A DNA stretch of 64,000 nucleotides from a virus. The notes under the pieces are model-generated. The model was not told where the DNA came from. It made no database searches and saw only the letters and a list, made by a program, of their open reading frames with translations. The translations under genes and the position numbers were made by a program. The stretch spans positions 1 to 64,000 of the IMG/VR virus record IMGVR_UViG_3300047509_000103. The stretch is one strand, 5' to 3'. This document shows, in pieces, positions 868-31,375 of this stretch; the stretch's first letter is position 1, and every line of letters starts with the position of its first letter.

Positions 868-1278
868 TTATTTGTTCCATGGTTTGGCTTTGTGGATCTG
901 ATCTACCGTCGGCCACGATTCCGGTCCAGTGAAACGCACGGCCCTGTCATCCAAGTAGATAAGAGCTGCTGGCTTAGTTTTGGCCAGAGTTATGTCCTCA
1001 AGCCCGCGCGCACCGACGCACTCGAAGAAAGCGCCACCACCGTGCTCGTAGAGCCAGCGTCGAATCGCTCTGCGGCCGCGCCATGTCTTGCAGCGGGTCG
1101 AAAAGATGACGACCTCGAACTTGGCTAGCATCGTAATCAGCCACAAGATCGCGCCCGCCACGGGCGGATCGGGAATCGTATGGGCGTTTATCCATGGCGT
1201 CGTGTACGAATGCAGAACGCCATCGAAGTCAACGCATACCGTATACTTTTTTTCCTTCACAACATCACCTTTCTTCAT
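868..1278 (-). CDS. HAD-superfamily phosphatase-like protein
   Basis: This is a 136-residue cytoplasmic protein with HAD motif I near its N-terminus (VCVDFDGVLHSY, the two Asp around residues 17 and 19). Later come a hydrophobic strand ending in FST, which fits motif II, and a C-terminal acidic motif (YLDDRAV) which fits motif IV. Short HAD proteins of this type are common in tailed phages and are usually annotated as hydrolases or phosphatases. The substrate cannot be deduced; nucleotide or polynucleotide 3'-phosphate processing is possible. The start at 1278 shares TGATG with the stop of the upstream ASCH gene. An upstream in-frame extension is open but lies inside that gene, so I reject it. 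Confidence 0.75.
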   Translation of the reverse strand: MKKGDVVKEKKYTVCVDFDGVLHSYTTPWINAHTIPDPPVAGAILWLITMLAKFEVVIFSTRCKTWRGRRAIRRWLYEHGGGAFFECVGARGLEDITLAKTKPAALIYLDDRAVRFTGPESWPTVDQIHKAKPWNK

Positions 1279-1652
1279 CACCACGGTGAATCGACGTTGA
1301 AGAAACTCAGTTGGCCGCGGCATGGAACAAACGGCCGCAGCACAGGATTGCGCAGTACGAAGCCCCACTTGCCGAAAAACCAGGGCGAGCTAGAAACCGC
1401 TGCGCAATCGAGTATGTCGACCGTGCCTATCAGACCACCGCGATCAAGTTCCTTCGCCGGCGGTAGGACGATGGAAGGGAAGCGATCGGCAAGAAAGTCT
1501 TCGACTTCGGCGTACTCGCGCTTCGTCATACCGCCGGATGCGTGCACAGCAATCGTGCCGCGCACGTGCGTCGGCCAGTCACGATTCTCGACGTCTTTGC
1601 TGGCGTGCATGATCAGCCACGCCCACGGTTGCCGGATGGAGAGAGCTTTCAC
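1278..1652 (-). CDS. ASCH-domain (PUA-like) protein
   Basis: This 124-residue protein opens with VKALSIRQPWAWLI, followed by DVENRDWP and the core GTIAVHASG. Together these are the signature of small ASCH proteins with the PUA-like fold, which bind RNA or modified nucleotides. GTG at 1652 is chosen because it lies three bases after the stop of the preceding gene and directly before the conserved N-terminus. Such proteins are frequent in phage early operons, and some relatives are RNases or RNA-binding regulators. The specific role here is unknown. A second, larger PUA-like protein is encoded at 5186-5953. Confidence 0.75.
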   Translation of the reverse strand: MKALSIRQPWAWLIMHASKDVENRDWPTHVRGTIAVHASGGMTKREYAEVEDFLADRFPSIVLPPAKELDRGGLIGTVDILDCAAVSSSPWFFGKWGFVLRNPVLRPFVPCRGQLSFFNVDSPW

Positions 1653-1654
1653 GA

Positions 1655-1861
1655 TCAGAAGAATTCCGGCTTCGCGACTGCGCGGGTGAGTGCCATCAAG
1701 CCCTGTTGCAGGTGCGTGGTGCCGATCGAGATCCACCGCTGGTCATAGTTTGGACCTCCCAAGGCGCCAACCAATTCAGCGAGTTCTTTGCCCGTCTCCT
1801 TGATTCGGTTGATCAGCGCAATTTCTTGCTCGTTCAACTCGCGATAGTGCTGGTTTTCCAT
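1655..1861 (-). CDS. acb2-like: Acb2/Tad1 hairpin-type protein, candidate anti-CBASS
   Basis: This is a 68-residue helical protein. Two blocks match my recollection of Acb2/Tad1 hairpin proteins: YRELNEQEIALINRIKETGK near the N-terminus, and at the C-terminus RW...GTTHLQQGLMALTRAV followed by AKPEFF. Acb2 proteins sequester cyclic di- and trinucleotide signals and so blunt CBASS defence. The ATG at 1861 has a GGAG site at good spacing. The frame is open further upstream, to an ATG at 2002 that lacks a ribosome site. The neighbours are other small early accessory proteins, which suits a counter-defence gene. The assignment rests on remembered family motifs only. Confidence 0.7.
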   Translation of the reverse strand: MENQHYRELNEQEIALINRIKETGKELAELVGALGGPNYDQRWISIGTTHLQQGLMALTRAVAKPEFF

Positions 1862-2060
1862 TGCATTCTCCAAATAAGTGCAGGCGACGAACGGGGCAGC
1901 AAACGGGGAAGGAAAACCGCCCGCTCGCCGCCTGCGTGAAAGGAATTTTGCGTCCCGTATACGCCGGGACCACGCGGATTTTTTTGACTTGTCTGTCGCC
2001 ATGCGCTTTCGTGCGCCCGCCTGCAACGCTCGGCTTCTGCTAAGGCACGCCGAGACAGCC

Positions 2061-2345: not shown

Positions 2346-3884
2346 TCAACCCCTCTCTGGTGTATTTTGCTGTTGAATTACGGTGCGTTTTCCTGCGTGG
2401 TCAGGCGCCGACACGACGCCTTGTTCTTCCATCGTTTCGACCAGCTGCGCGGCGCGGTTGTAGCCGATCTTGAACACTCGCTGGACGTAGCTGATCGACA
2501 CCGCGCCAGCTTCGCGCACTGTGGCGATCGCCTTGGGCAGCAAATCGTCCGCTTCGCCGCCGCCAAAAGAAGCCAGCACTTCGCCGGTGTTTCCATCCGA
2601 TACGGTGGCGGTGACGCCCTGCTCCTTGCAGAGCCGGTCCATTTTCTTCACGGCCGCATGCACCTTCGGTGACGCCGCCGGTGCGCTCGGCTCGGTCATC
2701 TCGACTAGAGCGGCGAGGATCCACAACGATGTGTAGCCAGCGTTCTTGCCGTGGTTTTCTTTCGCCAGTGCGATCGCCGCCTCGGTGTCAGTCGTGCCGT
2801 CTTTCTTCGCCCGCTTTGTGATCGCCGCTGCACTGCTGGCCATCGTCTCGTCGAACTTGTGCCCGAGGAATTCGCGCGCGGTCTTCCGTGCCTCGTACAT
2901 CTTGGCAGTGATACCGATCACCTTCTCCCACTTGCCAGTCGTCTCCGCATCCCGCATGTGCTTCGGCGCGTCACCGCCATCGAGCGTGAGCTTCGGCGCC
3001 GCGCTGACCCCGAACGTTGATGCCAGCCAGTCCAGCACGCGCCGCAGCTCGAGCGTCATCAGCGCGAACTGCGAGTCGAACAGTTCCGCGGTGCTCTCGG
3101 CATCGCCGAGTTCGTCCTGCACCACATCCAGGAACCGCACCTTGTGCAGGCACAGCGCCTCGTCGAGTACGAACGAAACCCGATCATCGAACACCAGCGC
3201 CAGGCGAAACACCTGCTTGCCCGATTTCAGGTGCTCGCGCACTTCGTCCGATTCCAAGTCCTGATTCGTGCAGCGGACAACGGCGCCGGTTTCGGCTGGA
3301 TCTCGCAGCTCAATCTGATCACCGAGCACCAGATGCTCAGGCAGCTTGCCGTTGATCACCCAGTCGGTCATCAGCGCGCGCGGTGATTCTTCCGGCGAGA
3401 GCGGCACGCAGGGGAACGAGCCGGCCGCTTCGCGGATCGACGAGATGATGTTCTCGGCAACCTTGCGTGTAGCGTGGTCGATCACCAGCCAACCGTCTTT
3501 CGTGAAATAGGCGTTGGTGCGGCGCGTGCGCACGAACGCCTGCGGCAGCAGTGTGGTGAACACTTCGTCTTTGATGCGCTTGCGTTCTTTCGCGCCGACT
3601 CCCACGCCCGTCGCCGCTTCGATCGCGTCGATTTTGTGCGCCAGCACATCGCGCACCACGTCGGCCGGAAGCAACCTTTCCTGCTGCGCCACGGTGATCA
3701 GTTTGAAGTCGCCGACCACGTGCGTGTATGAGTCATCGAACCCATGCACGGGCGGCACGAAGCCGAACGTCGACAGTTCGAGTGGGCCACAGTCGCGCAA
3801 GGCGTGCTTTGGCAACGCATCGCAGAGCGCGCCCAGATCAATCTCTTGGCCGAAGCGGTAGCAAGTTAGGTTGCGGAAGAACAT
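2346..3884 (-). CDS. rdgC-like: RdgC-like recombination-associated protein fused to an FtsK gamma winged helix
   Basis: This 512-residue protein has two parts. Residues 1 to about 300 match RdgC: MFFRNLTCYRF at the start, then FGFVPPV, an LLPQAFVRT block, WLVIDHATRK, a PLSPEESP block and FDSQFALMTLEL. RdgC is a ring-shaped double-stranded DNA-binding protein that restrains RecA. After a charged linker, about residues 449-505 match the FtsK gamma domain (DDLLPKAIATV, SISYVQRVFKIGYNRAAQLV, MEEQGVV). Gamma is the winged helix that reads KOPS in FtsK. No translocase motor is present. Free bacterial RdgC is about 300 residues, so this is a genuine extension. It belongs to the recombination operon with RecT, exonuclease and SSB. 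Confidence 0.85.
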   Translation of the reverse strand: MFFRNLTCYRFGQEIDLGALCDALPKHALRDCGPLELSTFGFVPPVHGFDDSYTHVVGDFKLITVAQQERLLPADVVRDVLAHKIDAIEAATGVGVGAKERKRIKDEVFTTLLPQAFVRTRRTNAYFTKDGWLVIDHATRKVAENIISSIREAAGSFPCVPLSPEESPRALMTDWVINGKLPEHLVLGDQIELRDPAETGAVVRCTNQDLESDEVREHLKSGKQVFRLALVFDDRVSFVLDEALCLHKVRFLDVVQDELGDAESTAELFDSQFALMTLELRRVLDWLASTFGVSAAPKLTLDGGDAPKHMRDAETTGKWEKVIGITAKMYEARKTAREFLGHKFDETMASSAAAITKRAKKDGTTDTEAAIALAKENHGKNAGYTSLWILAALVEMTEPSAPAASPKVHAAVKKMDRLCKEQGVTATVSDGNTGEVLASFGGGEADDLLPKAIATVREAGAVSISYVQRVFKIGYNRAAQLVETMEEQGVVSAPDHAGKRTVIQQQNTPERG

Positions 3885-4902: not shown

Positions 4903-5189
4903 GGTGGTTCCCTCAGCGGCAATGGCCCGCAGTGTTTGTATTCGGCCAATGGATCCTTCGCGAATTTGCCGTCGACGCGCAGCTTGACCATGTAGTCTCC
5001 GTCGAGCGTCCCTTCAGGCAAGCGCTCGTGCAGCTCGCGCATGAGGTCTACGAACTGCTCCTGCCACTCAATCGGCATTGAGCACAGCGCTCGGCGCGCC
5101 ACGACCAGATAACTTGCGTATGTGAGGCCGAATTCGTTCCACACAGGACCGTCTGCGTACTCTGGGCGATAGCCGATGTCTTCGCTCAT
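4890..5189 (-). CDS. Hypothetical protein, 99 aa
   Basis: This soluble 99-residue protein (GYRPEYADGPVWNEFGL, LPLREPP) starts at ATG 5189, overlapping the stop of the gene at 5186. It ends 13 bases inside the SleB-like gene. A central segment resembling FVDLMRELHERLPEG is predicted helical. I do not recognise the family. Its position between a PUA-like protein and a cell wall hydrolase gives no clear hint. Confidence 0.65.
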   Translation of the reverse strand: MSEDIGYRPEYADGPVWNEFGLTYASYLVVARRALCSMPIEWQEQFVDLMRELHERLPEGTLDGDYMVKLRVDGKFAKDPLAEYKHCGPLPLREPPCAD

Positions 5190-5953
5190 GGTGTCGCTCG
5201 CTTAAAAGTGAGAACCCAGATCCACGGGTTGCTATCCCATAACGCGCGCTTGGCATTGATCGAATCCCACAATTTCTGGAAGTCATCGCGTTCAGCCTTG
5301 CAGCCCTTTTCGTTGCAATCAGAACAGCCATCTGGCCCATAGCAGAATCCGTTCAGCGGCTTGATGCCTTCCGCTATTGCATCATCGGCGCTGATGTCCT
5401 GCAGCCGCTGAACGCGCACGTCGGTGATCTCAAGCGTGAGGCGTGAGGCCCATCGGTGCATGTGGATGGCGGTTACGGTTTTGCCAAACCGCCCGACGCA
5501 GTGCTCGTAGATCGGATGTGGATATTTCCACTCGCTCAGTGAGCGCTTTGCTTCGTCGGCTTTGTAGACGAGAAAATCTTCACCAGGCTCGGCTTCGGCC
5601 ATCACGCGCGACATCCAACGCTGATAACGCGCACCGTCTTTCGGCCTGCTACTCTCGTTGGAGCGCGGCGTGTGCCAGTCCTTTGGGCGATCAGGCTGTT
5701 CCCAGTATGTCGTCGTCTCGCGCACCCAGAGCCGATCACCTGGCTCGCCGTAAGGGCAACTTAGGTCCATGTAGTCCAGCGTGTCCGGATTCTTAAAGAA
5801 GTTTCCAGGATCGCCTGCCACCACAGTACCCATGTATTCGGTGAACGGTTCACGCAGCTTGATCAAGCGCCGCGTTTGCGTTTTGCTGCCGTCGAGCAGT
5901 GATCTGACCATCGGCGCCGAAAACAATATTGGTCTTTCCTTCACGGCGTTCAT
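5186..5953 (-). CDS. PUA/ASCH-like phage protein, 255 aa
   Basis: The N-terminus (KERPILFSAPMVRSLLDGSK, then TQTRR) and the later blocks GDRLWVRET, LEITDVRVQRLQDIS and EGI are the pattern of a widespread phage family with a PUA-like, ASCH-related fold. A Cys cluster in the middle of the C-terminal half (CYGPDGCSDCNEKGCKAE) could bind zinc. RNA or modified-base binding is inferred from the fold. It is coupled by ATGA overlaps to both neighbours. It is larger than the ASCH protein at 1278-1652 and not a close copy of it. Confidence 0.7.
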   Translation of the reverse strand: MNAVKERPILFSAPMVRSLLDGSKTQTRRLIKLREPFTEYMGTVVAGDPGNFFKNPDTLDYMDLSCPYGEPGDRLWVRETTTYWEQPDRPKDWHTPRSNESSRPKDGARYQRWMSRVMAEAEPGEDFLVYKADEAKRSLSEWKYPHPIYEHCVGRFGKTVTAIHMHRWASRLTLEITDVRVQRLQDISADDAIAEGIKPLNGFCYGPDGCSDCNEKGCKAERDDFQKLWDSINAKRALWDSNPWIWVLTFKRATP

Positions 5954-14077: not shown

Positions 14078-14566
14078 ATGGAAAAACCAGCAATGTGGCT
14101 CGACGCGACCTGGATGCAGCGCGGGTTGAGCGCACTACGCAACACCTTGGACGCTGACTCCAAGGATCAGATGATTCAGTTCCTGTTCGACACGGGGCTG
14201 TGGGATCCGGAAATTCTGACTGGCGACGCGGCAATCGCTCGATTCAACTCCGGACTCAACCCCGCAAAAGTCACGGTGAACTTCAAGCTCTGCGAGATCT
14301 GGGCGCTGATGCGCCACTTCGATCGGCACGAACTGTTTCACGTGATGGCGGACGACCTGGGCTACGAGATACGCAAGAAATCCAGCAACGAACGCGTTAT
14401 CGAATCCAATGAGCGACTCGCTCGCGCGATCGAGAATTCCAACCGCCTGCTAGCTGAGGCCGCTGGCGATAAAGCCCGGCTCACCGCACCGCAAACCGTT
14501 TCCCGAATCCACCCTGCCATCCAAGACGGACGCGGTTCGTTTTCGATGGAAGGGAAGGGGTTCTGA
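14078..14566 (+). CDS. Hypothetical protein at the CII position, 162 aa
   Basis: This 162-residue soluble protein starts at ATG 14078 with a GGGGAG ribosome site. The first 100 residues look like a compact helical domain (QMIQFLFDTGLWDPEILTG, LCEIWALMRHFDRHELF, VMADDLGYEIRKK). A Ser/Asn/Ala helical tail follows. It occupies the place of cII-like regulators, directly after the Cro-like gene. I do not recognise a helix-turn-helix in it. Its stop overlaps the methyltransferase start as TGATG. Confidence 0.65.
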   Translation: MEKPAMWLDATWMQRGLSALRNTLDADSKDQMIQFLFDTGLWDPEILTGDAAIARFNSGLNPAKVTVNFKLCEIWALMRHFDRHELFHVMADDLGYEIRKKSSNERVIESNERLARAIENSNRLLAEAAGDKARLTAPQTVSRIHPAIQDGRGSFSMEGKGF

Positions 14567-16380
14567 TGAATCAGAACCGATTCACGTTTCAACACGAGTT
14601 GATCGTCGACCTATTCGCCGGCGGTGGCGGCGCCTCGCTCGGCATCGAGCAAGCCTTCGGGCGGCCGGTCGACATCTGCGTAAACCACGACGCCGACGCG
14701 GTCGCGATGCACGCTGCGAATCACCCTGGCACCGAGCACCTGCGCTGCGATGTGTTCGAGGTTGATCCGATCAAAGCCACCGGCGGCCGCCAGATCGGCC
14801 TGCTCTGGGCATCGCCGGATTGCAAACACTTCAGCAAGGCCAAAGGCGGCAAGCCGCGCTCGAAGAAAATCCGCTCACTGGCATGGGTCGTAGTGAAGTG
14901 GGCCGACGTGGTTCGCCCGCGCATGATCATGCTGGAGAACGTGGAAGAGTTCGTCACGTGGGGCCCGCTGGGCAAGAACGGCCAGCCCTGCCCGAATCGC
15001 AAGGGTGCCACATTCAACCGCTGGGTCGCGAAGCTGCGCAAGCTGGGCTACAAGGTCGAATGGAATAACCTGCGCGCCTGCGACTACGGTGCGCCGACGA
15101 TCAGGAACCGATTCTTCCTGATCGCCCGCTGCGATGGTCTGCCGATCACCTGGCCAACGCCGACGCACCGCAAGCCGGATAGCGTCGCGGTCAAATCCGG
15201 GAAGCTGCTGCCGTGGCGCACGGCTGCTGAGTGCATCGACTTCACGCTGCCGACCCCGTCGATATTCCTGAGCAAAGACGAGGCCCGCGCGCTGGGCGTC
15301 AAGCGCCCGCTGGCGGAAGCCACCATGAAGCGCATCGCCAAGGGCATCGACAGGTTCGTGCTCAACGCGGCGAAACCATTCATCGTTCCGATTCAGAACT
15401 ACGGATGGGGCGATCGGTGCGCTAGCGTCGACGACCCAATGCGCACAGTCACCGCCGGGCCGAAGGGCGGCGCGTTCGCGCTGGCCGCGCCGACGCTGAT
15501 CCAAACCGGATACGGCGAGCGTGAAGGGCAAGCGCCTCGCGCGCCGGGGCTCGATGTTCCGCTCGGTACCGTGGTCGCTGGCGGCTGCAAACACGCGCTG
15601 GTGGCGGCAGCGATTGATCGACAGTTCGGCAAGTCGATGGGCAACGCGGCCGATGCGCCACTTGGCGCTACGACAGCCGGCGGACAAGGCAAGAGCGCAC
15701 TGGTCTCTGCCTTCCTTACGAAGTACAGGCCTGACAGCGCCGGCGCCGATGCGCAAGCGCCATTCCCCACGATCACCGCGAATGGCGAAAGCGATCGGCC
15801 CGGCGGAAATCCACCGCTGGCAGTCATCGCCGTGCACCTGGATCAAGCAAACGCCGGTTTCTACGACGGCGCTGGTCGCACGGTTGACGCGCCTGCAGCC
15901 ACTGTCTGCGCGCAAGGGAGCATGCAGCGGCTGGTCAGTTCCACGCTGGTCAAGCTCCGCGGCACCAGCAACACGGCCGATATCGAAACACCGCTGCACA
16001 CCGTCAGCGCGCAAGGCTTCCACCACGCCGAGGTGCGCGCATTCCTGATCAAGTTCTACAGCGAGGGCGGACAGCACGCGGCTTGCGGCGACCCGATGCA
16101 CACCGTCCCGACGCGCGACCGCATGGGGCTCGTCACGGTGGATGGATCTGACTACGCGATCGCCGACATTGGCCTGCGGATGCTGACACCGCGCGAACTG
16201 TTCCGCGCCCAGGGATTCCCGGAGAGCTACATCATCGATCGCGGTGTCGGCGGACGAAAGCTGCCGAAGGACGCGCAGGTGCGCATGTGCGGCAACAGCG
16301 TCTGCCCGCCACTGGCGCGCGCGCTGGTCGCGGCGAACGTGGGCGAGGTCGAACGGGCCTGGACGGAGCAAGCCGCATGA
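14566..16380 (+). CDS. DNA cytosine-5 methyltransferase with repeat-rich target region
   Basis: This is a 604-residue Dcm-like enzyme. Motif I is DLFAGGGGASLG (about residues 15-26), motif IV with the catalytic Cys is SPDCKHFSKAKGG (about 83-95), motif VI is LENVEEF, motif VIII is PTIRNRFFLIA, and motifs IX-X end in MCGNSVCPPLA. The active site reads P-D-C where classical enzymes have P-C-Q, a form I recall from other phage enzymes. Between about residues 285 and 540 there are seven imperfect repeats of the type DxPxxTVxAxG...LV, which likely form the target-recognition region. The enzyme would modify phage DNA against host restriction. It overlaps DUF4031 as ATGA. Confidence 0.9.
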   Translation: MNQNRFTFQHELIVDLFAGGGGASLGIEQAFGRPVDICVNHDADAVAMHAANHPGTEHLRCDVFEVDPIKATGGRQIGLLWASPDCKHFSKAKGGKPRSKKIRSLAWVVVKWADVVRPRMIMLENVEEFVTWGPLGKNGQPCPNRKGATFNRWVAKLRKLGYKVEWNNLRACDYGAPTIRNRFFLIARCDGLPITWPTPTHRKPDSVAVKSGKLLPWRTAAECIDFTLPTPSIFLSKDEARALGVKRPLAEATMKRIAKGIDRFVLNAAKPFIVPIQNYGWGDRCASVDDPMRTVTAGPKGGAFALAAPTLIQTGYGEREGQAPRAPGLDVPLGTVVAGGCKHALVAAAIDRQFGKSMGNAADAPLGATTAGGQGKSALVSAFLTKYRPDSAGADAQAPFPTITANGESDRPGGNPPLAVIAVHLDQANAGFYDGAGRTVDAPAATVCAQGSMQRLVSSTLVKLRGTSNTADIETPLHTVSAQGFHHAEVRAFLIKFYSEGGQHAACGDPMHTVPTRDRMGLVTVDGSDYAIADIGLRMLTPRELFRAQGFPESYIIDRGVGGRKLPKDAQVRMCGNSVCPPLARALVAANVGEVERAWTEQAA

Positions 16381-20149: not shown

Positions 20150-20601
20150 CGGACGAAAGGAAAGTCGATTCGCTTGGCCGATCGTATATCAGCCGAAAGA
20201 AGTTGCGACCTTGCGCTCAGTGCGGCGACCAGATTAAACGCAAGGGCACCGCCGTTAAGTATTGCTCGCGTAAATGCTACGGCACCGCGGCTGCTGGCGT
20301 CCCGAAACCACCTGAACAGGTAGCGGCCAGACAGGTTCCGCGCGGCGACAAGCATTGGGCTTGGAGTGGTGCGTCTGTTAGTGAAAAGGGCGGCAGAGCA
20401 CGCGCGCTTAGGCAGTACCGAAGCGCTGGCCGTTGTTCGCGTTGCGCCGCCACGCGCGGCGAGCGGCACCACAAAGACGGGAACACCGCGAACAACGACA
20501 CGTCGAACGTCGAGATCCTGTGTCGCCGTTGCCACATGGAGGTGGACGGTCGTCTCGCACTGCTGATTGCTAACCCAGGCAAAGGGTGTGTATGTCCGTG
20601 A
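20146..20601 (+). CDS. HNH endonuclease with zinc ribbon
   Basis: This 151-residue protein has an N-terminal zinc-binding part (CAQCGDQIKRKG, YCSRKCYG) and a C-terminal HNH domain (RCSRCAATRGERHHKDGNTA, then NVEILCRRCHMEVDG). The His-His-Lys-Asp-Gly and Cys-x2-Cys pairs are complete. This type is typical of phage homing-like nucleases. GTG at 20146 is chosen from the GTGA overlap. It lies between the SNF2 helicase and a methyltransferase. Confidence 0.85.
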   Translation: MTDERKVDSLGRSYISRKKLRPCAQCGDQIKRKGTAVKYCSRKCYGTAAAGVPKPPEQVAARQVPRGDKHWAWSGASVSEKGGRARALRQYRSAGRCSRCAATRGERHHKDGNTANNDTSNVEILCRRCHMEVDGRLALLIANPGKGCVCP

Positions 20602-22019
20602 AGATACTTACGGGCGATTGCCGCCAGGTGCTGGCCACGCTGCCAGCCGAGAGCGTGCACAGCATCGTGACCGACCCGCCGTACGGCATCGGGTTCATGG
20701 GCAAGGAGTGGGACCATAAGAACATCGTGGCGCGTGCCAAGCAACGCGCCGGCCACGCGCAGCCAAAGCATCGCAACGGCACCGAGCGCACAGCGCCTAG
20801 GCGAGCGCTCGCCGAAGAAGCTGGCGCATACGACCTCTCGCCAGCAGCGATGCGCGCTTTTCAAAGCTGGACTGCTGAATGGGCAGCGCAAGCGATTCGT
20901 GTGCTGAAGCCTGGCGGCATCGTTCTCTGCTTTGCTTCGACCAGGACGTATCACCGTATGGCCTGCGGTCTTGAGGACGCCGGTTTCGAGGTGTTCGATC
21001 AAATTGGCTGGCTGTTCGGGTCCGGCTTCCCGAAAAACCACGACTTCGCGAAAGATCAGGAGGCGAGCAAAGCTGCCGGTGCGCGCGTCATCAAAGCGGA
21101 ATTCACCGGGCACCAGATGGCCGTTGGCTTTGGTACCGCACTGAAACCGGGATGGGAGCCGATCGCCGTCGCGCGCAAGCCCATCAGCGGCACGTATGCA
21201 GAGAACGTTCTATTGCACGGTTGCGGCGCGCTGAATATCGACGGATGCCGAGTGGAGACAGAAGACCATATTGGCGGCGGTGCCTATTCGGCGAACGGGA
21301 ACCGAAACGTATCTGGATCGTTGTCACCAACTGGAATGAATCGCGCTGGCGCGACCGCTGCGCAAGAGTTCGTCCAGCCGAAAGGCCGGTGGCCAGCAAA
21401 CGTTGTGCACGACGGTAGTGATGAAGTTCTCGCCGCTTTTCCGAGTGTTGCCAGCGGCATACCCAGCGGCACCAAAGCCGGTAACAACAACAACGTTTTC
21501 GGTCAGTTTGCCGGCGGTATTCCGGTGACAGGCTACGGAGACGCCGGCAGCGCCGCGCGTTTCTACTATTGCGCCAAAGCTAGCAAGGCTGATCGCGAAG
21601 CCGGTTGCGATGGTCTTCCGACCAAACGCGGCGGGATGGTGAGCAATACCAGCGGCCAGCACATGACGCGGCGGGATGGTGGCGAGCCAGGCCAGCGCGC
21701 CAATCACCACCCCACGGTCAAACCCACCGAGTTGATGCGCTGGCTTGTGCGGCTCGTCACGCCACCGGGGGGGGCAGTGCTCGATCCATTCCTTGGTTCG
21801 GGCAGCACGGCGCGCGCGGCGAGCATCGATGGCTTCGACTGCATAGGCATCGAGCTGGACCCGGAATACGTGGCGATTGCCAAGCATCGGGTGAGCGGCG
21901 ACGCGCCGCTATTCGCCGATCACGCAGCCAGCGGCAGCGCCGGCAGCACCACAACAGCCAGTGCCTCATCCTCAAGCGATGGGTCGCCAGAGACCAGTTC
22001 GAGGTCGGCGCCGACATGA
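20592..22019 (+). CDS. N4/N6 DNA methyltransferase
   Basis: This 475-residue enzyme has the catalytic motif IV TDPPYGIGF near residue 30. Motif I is near the C-terminus (LDPFLGSGSTARAA, then FDCIGIELDPEY), which is the order of beta-class amino methyltransferases. ATG at 20592 follows AAAGGG and sits 10 bases inside the HNH gene. The long middle part (about 130-330) carries the target-recognition region. The C-terminus is a Ser/Thr-rich tail. It would methylate adenine N6 or cytosine N4 and, with the C5 enzyme, gives the phage two DNA modifications. Confidence 0.9.
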   Translation: MSVKILTGDCRQVLATLPAESVHSIVTDPPYGIGFMGKEWDHKNIVARAKQRAGHAQPKHRNGTERTAPRRALAEEAGAYDLSPAAMRAFQSWTAEWAAQAIRVLKPGGIVLCFASTRTYHRMACGLEDAGFEVFDQIGWLFGSGFPKNHDFAKDQEASKAAGARVIKAEFTGHQMAVGFGTALKPGWEPIAVARKPISGTYAENVLLHGCGALNIDGCRVETEDHIGGGAYSANGNRNVSGSLSPTGMNRAGATAAQEFVQPKGRWPANVVHDGSDEVLAAFPSVASGIPSGTKAGNNNNVFGQFAGGIPVTGYGDAGSAARFYYCAKASKADREAGCDGLPTKRGGMVSNTSGQHMTRRDGGEPGQRANHHPTVKPTELMRWLVRLVTPPGGAVLDPFLGSGSTARAASIDGFDCIGIELDPEYVAIAKHRVSGDAPLFADHAASGSAGSTTTASASSSSDGSPETSSRSAPT

Positions 22020-29934: not shown

Positions 29935-30254
29935 ACACATCAGCGGTCAAAACGGATAGGGCGAGCGTGGAGGCGATGGTGCAGTGGCTACGTGATTTCG
30001 GCTATCTTGATCATGGACGACTGCTAGAGGCCCTGCTCGCCGAGCGTGAGAAGGCGGACACGCAGTACGCGCTATTGCTGGCCGCGAGTAAACAGGGCGA
30101 GAAGGCGCACGAAATTCGCGCCAAGATTATTCACGAACTGGAAACCAAGCTCGCCGCCGCCGAAGCCGAGCGTGAGGCGCTGCGCAAGGGCGAGTACATT
30201 TGCAAAGAATGCGGGTTGCGCAAAAACGCACAGAGTGAGCCGGCGACGTTCTGA
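29931..30254 (+). CDS. Coiled-coil protein with C-terminal Cys pair, 107 aa
   Basis: This 107-residue protein is mostly a charged helix (LEALLAEREKADTQYALLL, LETKLAAAEAEREALRKG) ending in YICKECGLRKN. It precedes and overlaps the TnpB-like gene as TGATG. No family is named. Confidence 0.6.
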   Translation: MNTSAVKTDRASVEAMVQWLRDFGYLDHGRLLEALLAEREKADTQYALLLAASKQGEKAHEIRAKIIHELETKLAAAEAEREALRKGEYICKECGLRKNAQSEPATF

Positions 30255-31375
30255 TGAAAGCCCTGCGCCTCAAAGTTCACCCCGAATCGTGGCCTTGGCT
30301 AGATCAGGCAGCGCGAGAGGTCAATTTTGCTTGGAACTTCTCGAACGAAACTCGCCACAAAGCCGCGCACCCGTTCTTCGGTAAGCCACGCTACCTGTCT
30401 GGATGGGACCTGGACAAGCTGGCCACCGGAGCTGGCGAAGTCCTGAAACGGATCGGCACGGATACCATCTGCCGCGTCAATAGCGAGCTTGTAACCAAGT
30501 GCAAGGCAGTCCGGCGTTCAAGGCTGCGTTGGCGTGTCAGTGCTGGTCCGCGTCGTTCGCTTGGTTGGGTGCCGTTCAAGTCGGCCAACCTCCGCCGACA
30601 TGGCAACGCAATCCGATTCCGTGGCAAGACATTCCGCGTATTCAATGCCGGATTGCTCACTGGCGCGAAGCTGCGACAAGGGTCGTTTTCGCAGAATGCG
30701 CTTGGTGAATGGTTCATCAACATAGCGGTTGAAACCGCCTCTACGGACGTACCGGCAGAGCACGCCGTCGTCGGCATTGACCTTGGCCTCAAAAGCGCTG
30801 CAACAACGTCAGACGGCGACGTGCTTGAAGCCAGTCAGTTCTACCGCGGCATCGAGCCACGCATTGCCCAGGCGCAGCGTCGCGGCCACAAGCGGCAGGC
30901 TAAGCGGCTGCACCTGAAAGCTAAGAACCGGCGCGCTGACGCCCTGCATAAGTTCAGCACAAAGATCGTTGCGCAGTATCAGAACATCCGCATCGGCGAC
31001 GTGAGCAGTTCCAAGCTGGCGAAGACCAAGATGGCAAAGTCCGTCTTGGACGCTGGCTGGTACATGCTCAAAACGCAGCTTCAGTACAAGGGCCAGCAGG
31101 CCGGTCGCAGCGTTGAAGTGGTCGATGAGGCATACACAACACGCGCATGCAGCAACTGCGGAGCCTTAACCGGCCCAGCAGGTTTGGACATGCTCGCTGT
31201 AAGGTCGTGGCGCTGCTCGGATTGTGGAACCGAGCACGAGCGGGACGTTAACGCCGCTCGCAATATCGCCATGACCCCGCCGAGATGCCGGCGGCCATCT
31301 GCGGGAACGAGAGCCAGAACTGGCGTCACGAGGATCGAATCGCAGGCGGTTGAGCATCATCGGAGAATTTTATGA
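30254..31375 (+). CDS. tnpB-like: TnpB/IS605 OrfB-like protein (phage-encoded)
   Basis: This 373-residue protein has the TnpB layout: a basic N-terminal domain with the phage-type block RRSLGWVPFKSANLRR, RuvC I GIDLGLKSAATTSDG (about 174), a basic bridge-helix-like stretch, and a zinc ribbon (CSNCGALTGP ... CSDCG). RuvC III is ERDVNAARNIA (about 328). The usual RuvC II sequence I-x-x-E-D-L reads IRIGDVSSSKL (about 244-254), so the expected Glu is Gly. No IS ends or TnpA are seen, and the gene is tightly embedded between phage genes. It may be a domesticated RNA-guided protein, perhaps with altered cleavage. Confidence 0.85.
   Translation: MKALRLKVHPESWPWLDQAAREVNFAWNFSNETRHKAAHPFFGKPRYLSGWDLDKLATGAGEVLKRIGTDTICRVNSELVTKCKAVRRSRLRWRVSAGPRRSLGWVPFKSANLRRHGNAIRFRGKTFRVFNAGLLTGAKLRQGSFSQNALGEWFINIAVETASTDVPAEHAVVGIDLGLKSAATTSDGDVLEASQFYRGIEPRIAQAQRRGHKRQAKRLHLKAKNRRADALHKFSTKIVAQYQNIRIGDVSSSKLAKTKMAKSVLDAGWYMLKTQLQYKGQQAGRSVEVVDEAYTTRACSNCGALTGPAGLDMLAVRSWRCSDCGTEHERDVNAARNIAMTPPRCRRPSAGTRARTGVTRIESQAVEHHRRIL

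Follow-up and report, generated by a model that had tools for sequence, protein, structure and literature searches.

We identified a minus-strand gene (1655..1861) that very probably encodes an Acb2 cyclic-oligonucleotide sponge of 68 residues in a 64,000-nucleotide window, which is part of an 80,857-base virus record from an uncultivated phage (IMGVR_UViG_3300047509_000103). We place the probability of this reading at about 0.88, because the family match is full-length, the confidently predicted hairpin superposes on the solved Acb2 and Vs.4 structures, and the conserved Tyr, Lys and Arg residues are present. The protein is a new member of an already known family, and it is ordinary apart from a five-residue gap close to its N-terminus.

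Gene call and family assignment

The minus-strand product of 1655-1861 is MENQHYRELNEQEIALINRIKETGKELAELVGALGGPNYDQRWISIGTTHLQQGLMALTRAVAKPEFF (68 aa; ATG at 1861, stop at 1655). The coordinates and length given in an earlier note on this DNA are exact, and all of the motifs that it quoted are found in the minus-strand translation. The strand, which that claim left out, is minus; a plus-strand reading of the same interval was rejected as an unrelated frame without the described protein. A putative ribosome-binding motif, GGAG, is present in the upstream sequence 6 nt 5' of the ATG (1868..1871, minus). The open frame continues upstream to 2080 (141 aa in all), and this longer form was rejected, as the extension is not conserved and relatives start at MENQH. 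Since MENQH is the conserved start of the relatives in the alignment, 68 aa is the likely length. Compared with ten relatives, differences fall on the three codon positions at 28%, 17% and 53%, a pattern that averages over the whole divergence from those relatives and is that of a protein under purifying selection, as for a real coding gene. On the sequence evidence the open reading frame is a real gene, beyond chance, because the GGAG motif, the conserved MENQH start, the codon-position pattern and a whole-length Pfam match coincide.

The only Pfam-A family matched was PF24729, the Acb2/Tad1 hairpin (64.9 bits against a curated cut-off of 27 bits; profile positions 2-58 of 58), and this is the single PF24729 match in the 80,857-base record. 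The protein was assigned by PHROGs to phrog_717 (PHROG 717), the group used to collect Vs.4 homologues in work on T4 (PMC10097602), and its top PDB sequence matches are the Acb2 chains 8h2j (E 2.8e-10) and 8ixz (E 3.7e-10). Matches to it were found in 228 of 50,697 phage records, and nearly all of the Acb2 relatives among the matches listed are labelled 'hypothetical protein'. The earlier note had described the protein as Acb2/Tad1-like. The Acb2 half of that description is borne out by the profile, the sequence match to solved Acb2 and the predicted fold, while the Tad1 half does not extend beyond the shared hairpin. Tad1, an anti-Thoeris sponge, has the same C-terminal hairpin family, PF24729, but carries its own N-terminal beta-sheet domain (PMC12043709), for which a 68-aa protein has no room and of which the model has none. 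Because this beta domain is absent, the protein is Acb2 alone and not Tad1.

Predicted fold

A single-chain AlphaFold2 model from an input alignment of 42 sequences (pLDDT 91.8, pTM 0.73) consists of two helices, at residues 11-33 and 41-63, and contains no strands. In a Foldseek comparison with the PDB, ranks 1-8 were all Acb2 (8h2x, 8h2j) or T4 Vs.4 (7uq2), with E values of 1.7e-3 to 0.4, and the next rank stood at E 1.5. The comparison returned no match at E 0.001 or better, which is plausibly explained by the shortness of the hairpin. With VIA-align 2, the model superposed on Acb2 with Z 8.2 (rmsd 2.0, 67 residues) and on Vs.4 with Z 7.9 (rmsd 2.8, 68 residues), compared with Z of at most 6.6 for unrelated bundles, although a Z of about 8 for a helical hairpin is not decisive by itself. 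The structure prediction and comparison with Acb2 proposed in the earlier note therefore gave convincing fold matches only to Acb2 and T4 Vs.4. A control model of L022, an undeleted relative of 73% identity, reached pLDDT 88.4 and Z 7.7, so the five-residue deletion appears to carry no visible cost in the monomer model.

Ligand-contact residues and predicted function

In T4 Vs.4, Y8 and F82 stack on cGAMP, polar contacts to the ligand are made by Y8, H11, K23 and R79, and the hexamer interface includes L29, A66, A73 and A77 (PMC10097602). From the alignments and these published contacts, Tyr6 of the window protein (codon 1844..1846, minus) corresponds to the base-stacking Y8 of Vs.4 and to Y11 of the PaMx protein, Lys21 (1799..1801, minus) to the cGAMP-contacting K23, and Arg60 (1682..1684, minus) to the cGAMP-contacting R79; all three are invariant in the alignments. 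The interface residue L29 is retained as L27, and A66 and A73 are replaced by Gly47 and Gly54, as they also are by Gly in other close relatives. Identity to Vs.4 is 29%, and H11, S74, A77 and F82 are replaced by Leu9, Leu55, Leu58 and Ala63. These replacements appear to follow clade and to offer no argument against function, because the PaMx43 protein departs from T4 at the same positions (Leu, Met, Ile and Ala); by this comparison H11, S74 and F82 would not be family-defining. The resemblance to the PaMx33/PaMx43 Acb2 proteins of Pseudomonas phages (8h2j, 8h2x) takes in the PF24729 hairpin, the pocket Tyr, Lys and Arg, the RW...G.T..Q.G.MA..RA.A.P core and the C-terminal Phe, as well as the superposition over 67 residues. 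Unlike the window protein with its 68 residues and short tip, the PaMx proteins fall in a class of 93-94 aa whose hairpin tip is long.

Because the cGAMP-binding Tyr, Lys and Arg of T4 Vs.4 are conserved as Y6, K21 and R60, the predicted function is likely the sequestering of cyclic oligonucleotides, which would block CBASS-type signalling. The Acb2 hexamer takes up three cyclic dinucleotides, lodged between its protomers, along with two cyclic trinucleotides, which occupy the ends of its central channel, and it releases its ligands intact upon denaturation (PMC12043709; PMC10097602); the two kinds of site are reported to be independent (PMC12043709). The same sequestering activity also releases Panoptes toxicity (PMC12657218). 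Most likely, the window protein acts like this published family, by analogy with which its hexamer, ligands and phenotype are predicted. It may be produced early in infection, since acb2 shares its strand with the RecT and exonuclease genes. It would then assemble into a hexamer, with CBASS cyclic di- and/or trinucleotides held in inter-protomer pockets, and thereby prevent the activation of effectors such as CapV or NucC.

Phage genome and neighbourhood of acb2

The phage encodes a P22-like portal, a terminase and a capsid protein, and its RecT and exonuclease genes lie on the minus strand, the same side as acb2. Among 50,697 phage records there is no near DNA match for the first 25 kb. Outside the window, the record encodes an integrase as well as a polyvalent protein of 3,093 aa whose matches are of the DarB-like antirestriction kind (L142 3422-12703; record about 66421-75702). 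The phage looks temperate from its gene content, including this integrase. Within the window, this phage genome also encodes a TnpB/Cas12f-like protein (30254-31375, plus; PF07282 and PF01385).

In the window, acb2 is flanked by an rdgC-ftsK-gamma gene and, directly downstream, by a gene for an ASCH-domain protein (1278..1649, minus; PF04266 E 2.5e-4; phrog_3193 E 1.5e-47) that is probably co-transcribed with it. This phrog_3193 gene and a phrog_874 gene at 5186-5953 (minus) belong to conserved phage families of unknown function. The product of the rdgC-ftsK-gamma gene (2346-3884, minus) is a fusion in which RdgC (E 2e-93) carries an FtsK gamma winged helix (E 1.9e-22) at its C-terminus. This architecture recurs, with 15 phage records matching both ends and the matches listed being Pseudomonas aeruginosa phages; our literature search found no name for the combination. 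The 484-nt gap between this gene and acb2 (1862-2345) contains no convincing gene, and an RNA element there was rejected because Rfam gave no match anywhere in the window.

The earlier note had placed acb2 in a likely counter-defence island, a proposal that its neighbours do not bear out. The flanking genes either have no match or match ASCH, HAD, RdgC-FtsK gamma, a cell-wall hydrolase, RecT and exonucleases, and no known anti-defence family was found by Pfam, PHROG or PADLOC among the neighbours in the 0.2-7.5 kb block, where most genes are of unknown function. PADLOC, a library of defence and not anti-defence proteins, picked out nothing but two DNA methyltransferases, one at 14.6 kb and the other at 20.6 kb. 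These genes (14566-16380 and 20592-22019, both plus), of C5-cytosine and N4/N6 types, have possible anti-restriction functions. A conserved acb2-ASCH gene pair was considered and rejected, as relatives' loci have no ASCH homologue beside acb2; the only genes recurring in those loci encode RdgC (3 loci) and a methyltransferase (1 locus), both kilobases away. In named phages, acb2 lies beside differing genes (portal, terminase and DNA polymerase region). Since its neighbours do not recur beside it and differ in the named phages, this variety is consistent with acb2 being an accessory gene passed from phage to phage.

A five-residue gap before the stacking tyrosine

The earlier note had also regarded the protein as short and possibly a minimal form. 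It is about six residues below the commonest, 74-aa class, but most close relatives are themselves only 74-75 aa, and so the shortness is real and the contrast small. The 74-75-aa homologues from uncultivated phages and prophages, of which L022 is an example, belong to the same family at nearly the same length. Their hairpin from the Tyr to the final Arg is one residue longer (55 residues, compared with 54 in the window protein), and their Tyr is preceded by about ten residues that end in I-x-G/S, instead of by five. The real peculiarity of the window protein is this five-residue gap. Whereas relatives start M-[ED]-N-Q-H-R-x-I-[KTSA]-G-Y, the window protein starts M-E-N-Q-H-Y, and the R-x-I-x-G directly before the stacking Tyr6, which is present in the PaMx proteins, is absent.

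Exactly ten residues precede the Tyr in 63 of 72 distinct viral relatives; the other nine retain the I-x-G-Y end of the segment, with Ser in place of Gly in two of the 72. Among relatives from bacterial genomes, the same spacing of ten is seen in 65 of 76, and the remainder retain [IL]-x-G-Y except for three without the Tyr; a count of 3 returned for L161 is an artefact of the pattern used for counting. The segment is thus kept in all but three of about 148 sampled relatives, and five residues before the Tyr were found in none of the 72 viral and 76 bacterial-genome sequences. The three exceptions are an Azonexus relative (L157), in which the G-Y motif and with it the stacking Tyr is lost, and two Burkholderiales relatives (L182 and L185) with I-T-G-H in place of the Tyr-ended motif; from their sequences, all three are naturally occurring sponges that may be blind to dinucleotides.

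A short N-terminus does not by itself disable an Acb2, because T4 Vs.4 has only seven residues ahead of its Tyr and binds cGAMP all the same (Kd near 30 nM; PMC10097602), yet it keeps an I-K-G-Y that the window protein does not have. Most likely the protein tolerates the gap, though its affinity for dinucleotides may be altered. A stronger effect is possible but improbable, namely that the N-terminal deletion impairs the dinucleotide pocket and spares the trinucleotide sites, leaving a sponge selective for cyclic trinucleotides. The missing R-x-I-x-G adjoins the stacking Tyr, the independence reported for the two kinds of site (PMC12043709) would permit such a separation, T4 escapes Panoptes when dinucleotide binding is lost, and lesions of Acb2 are noted as occurring naturally in T2 and PaMx41 (PMC12657218). 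The retention of Y6, K21 and R60 argues the other way, as does the similarly short N-terminus of Vs.4, for all that the latter has its I-K-G-Y. If trinucleotide-selective, the protein could blunt NucC-type CBASS or cA3-type CRISPR signalling while sparing the dinucleotide pool guarded by Panoptes. We consider it improbable that it is a naturally N-trimmed Acb2 with its dinucleotide pocket retuned or lost and trinucleotide binding kept, which would counter trinucleotide defence without triggering Panoptes.

It is very unlikely that acb2 is instead decaying or non-functional, with the deletion as a loss-of-function step. A unique deletion within an otherwise highly conserved segment would suit such decay, and Panoptes can select for acb2 loss (PMC12657218), but the deletion is in frame, the start, ribosome-binding motif and C-terminus are intact, the codon pattern is that of purifying selection, albeit averaged over the whole divergence, and model confidence matches that of the undeleted relative. 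That this is a two-helix structural or lysis accessory protein functionally unrelated to Acb2 is highly improbable, for although helical hairpins are common and fold alone is weak evidence, the whole-length match lies above the curated cut-off, the ligand residues are conserved and the best PDB sequence match is Acb2.

As a probable Acb2 sponge, the protein adds to the family a member from a phage without a near relative in the phage collection. Its five-residue gap puts two questions to a natural test: which N-terminal parts are required for the dinucleotide pocket, and whether CBASS and Panoptes, pressing in opposite directions, lead phages to retune the specificity of Acb2.
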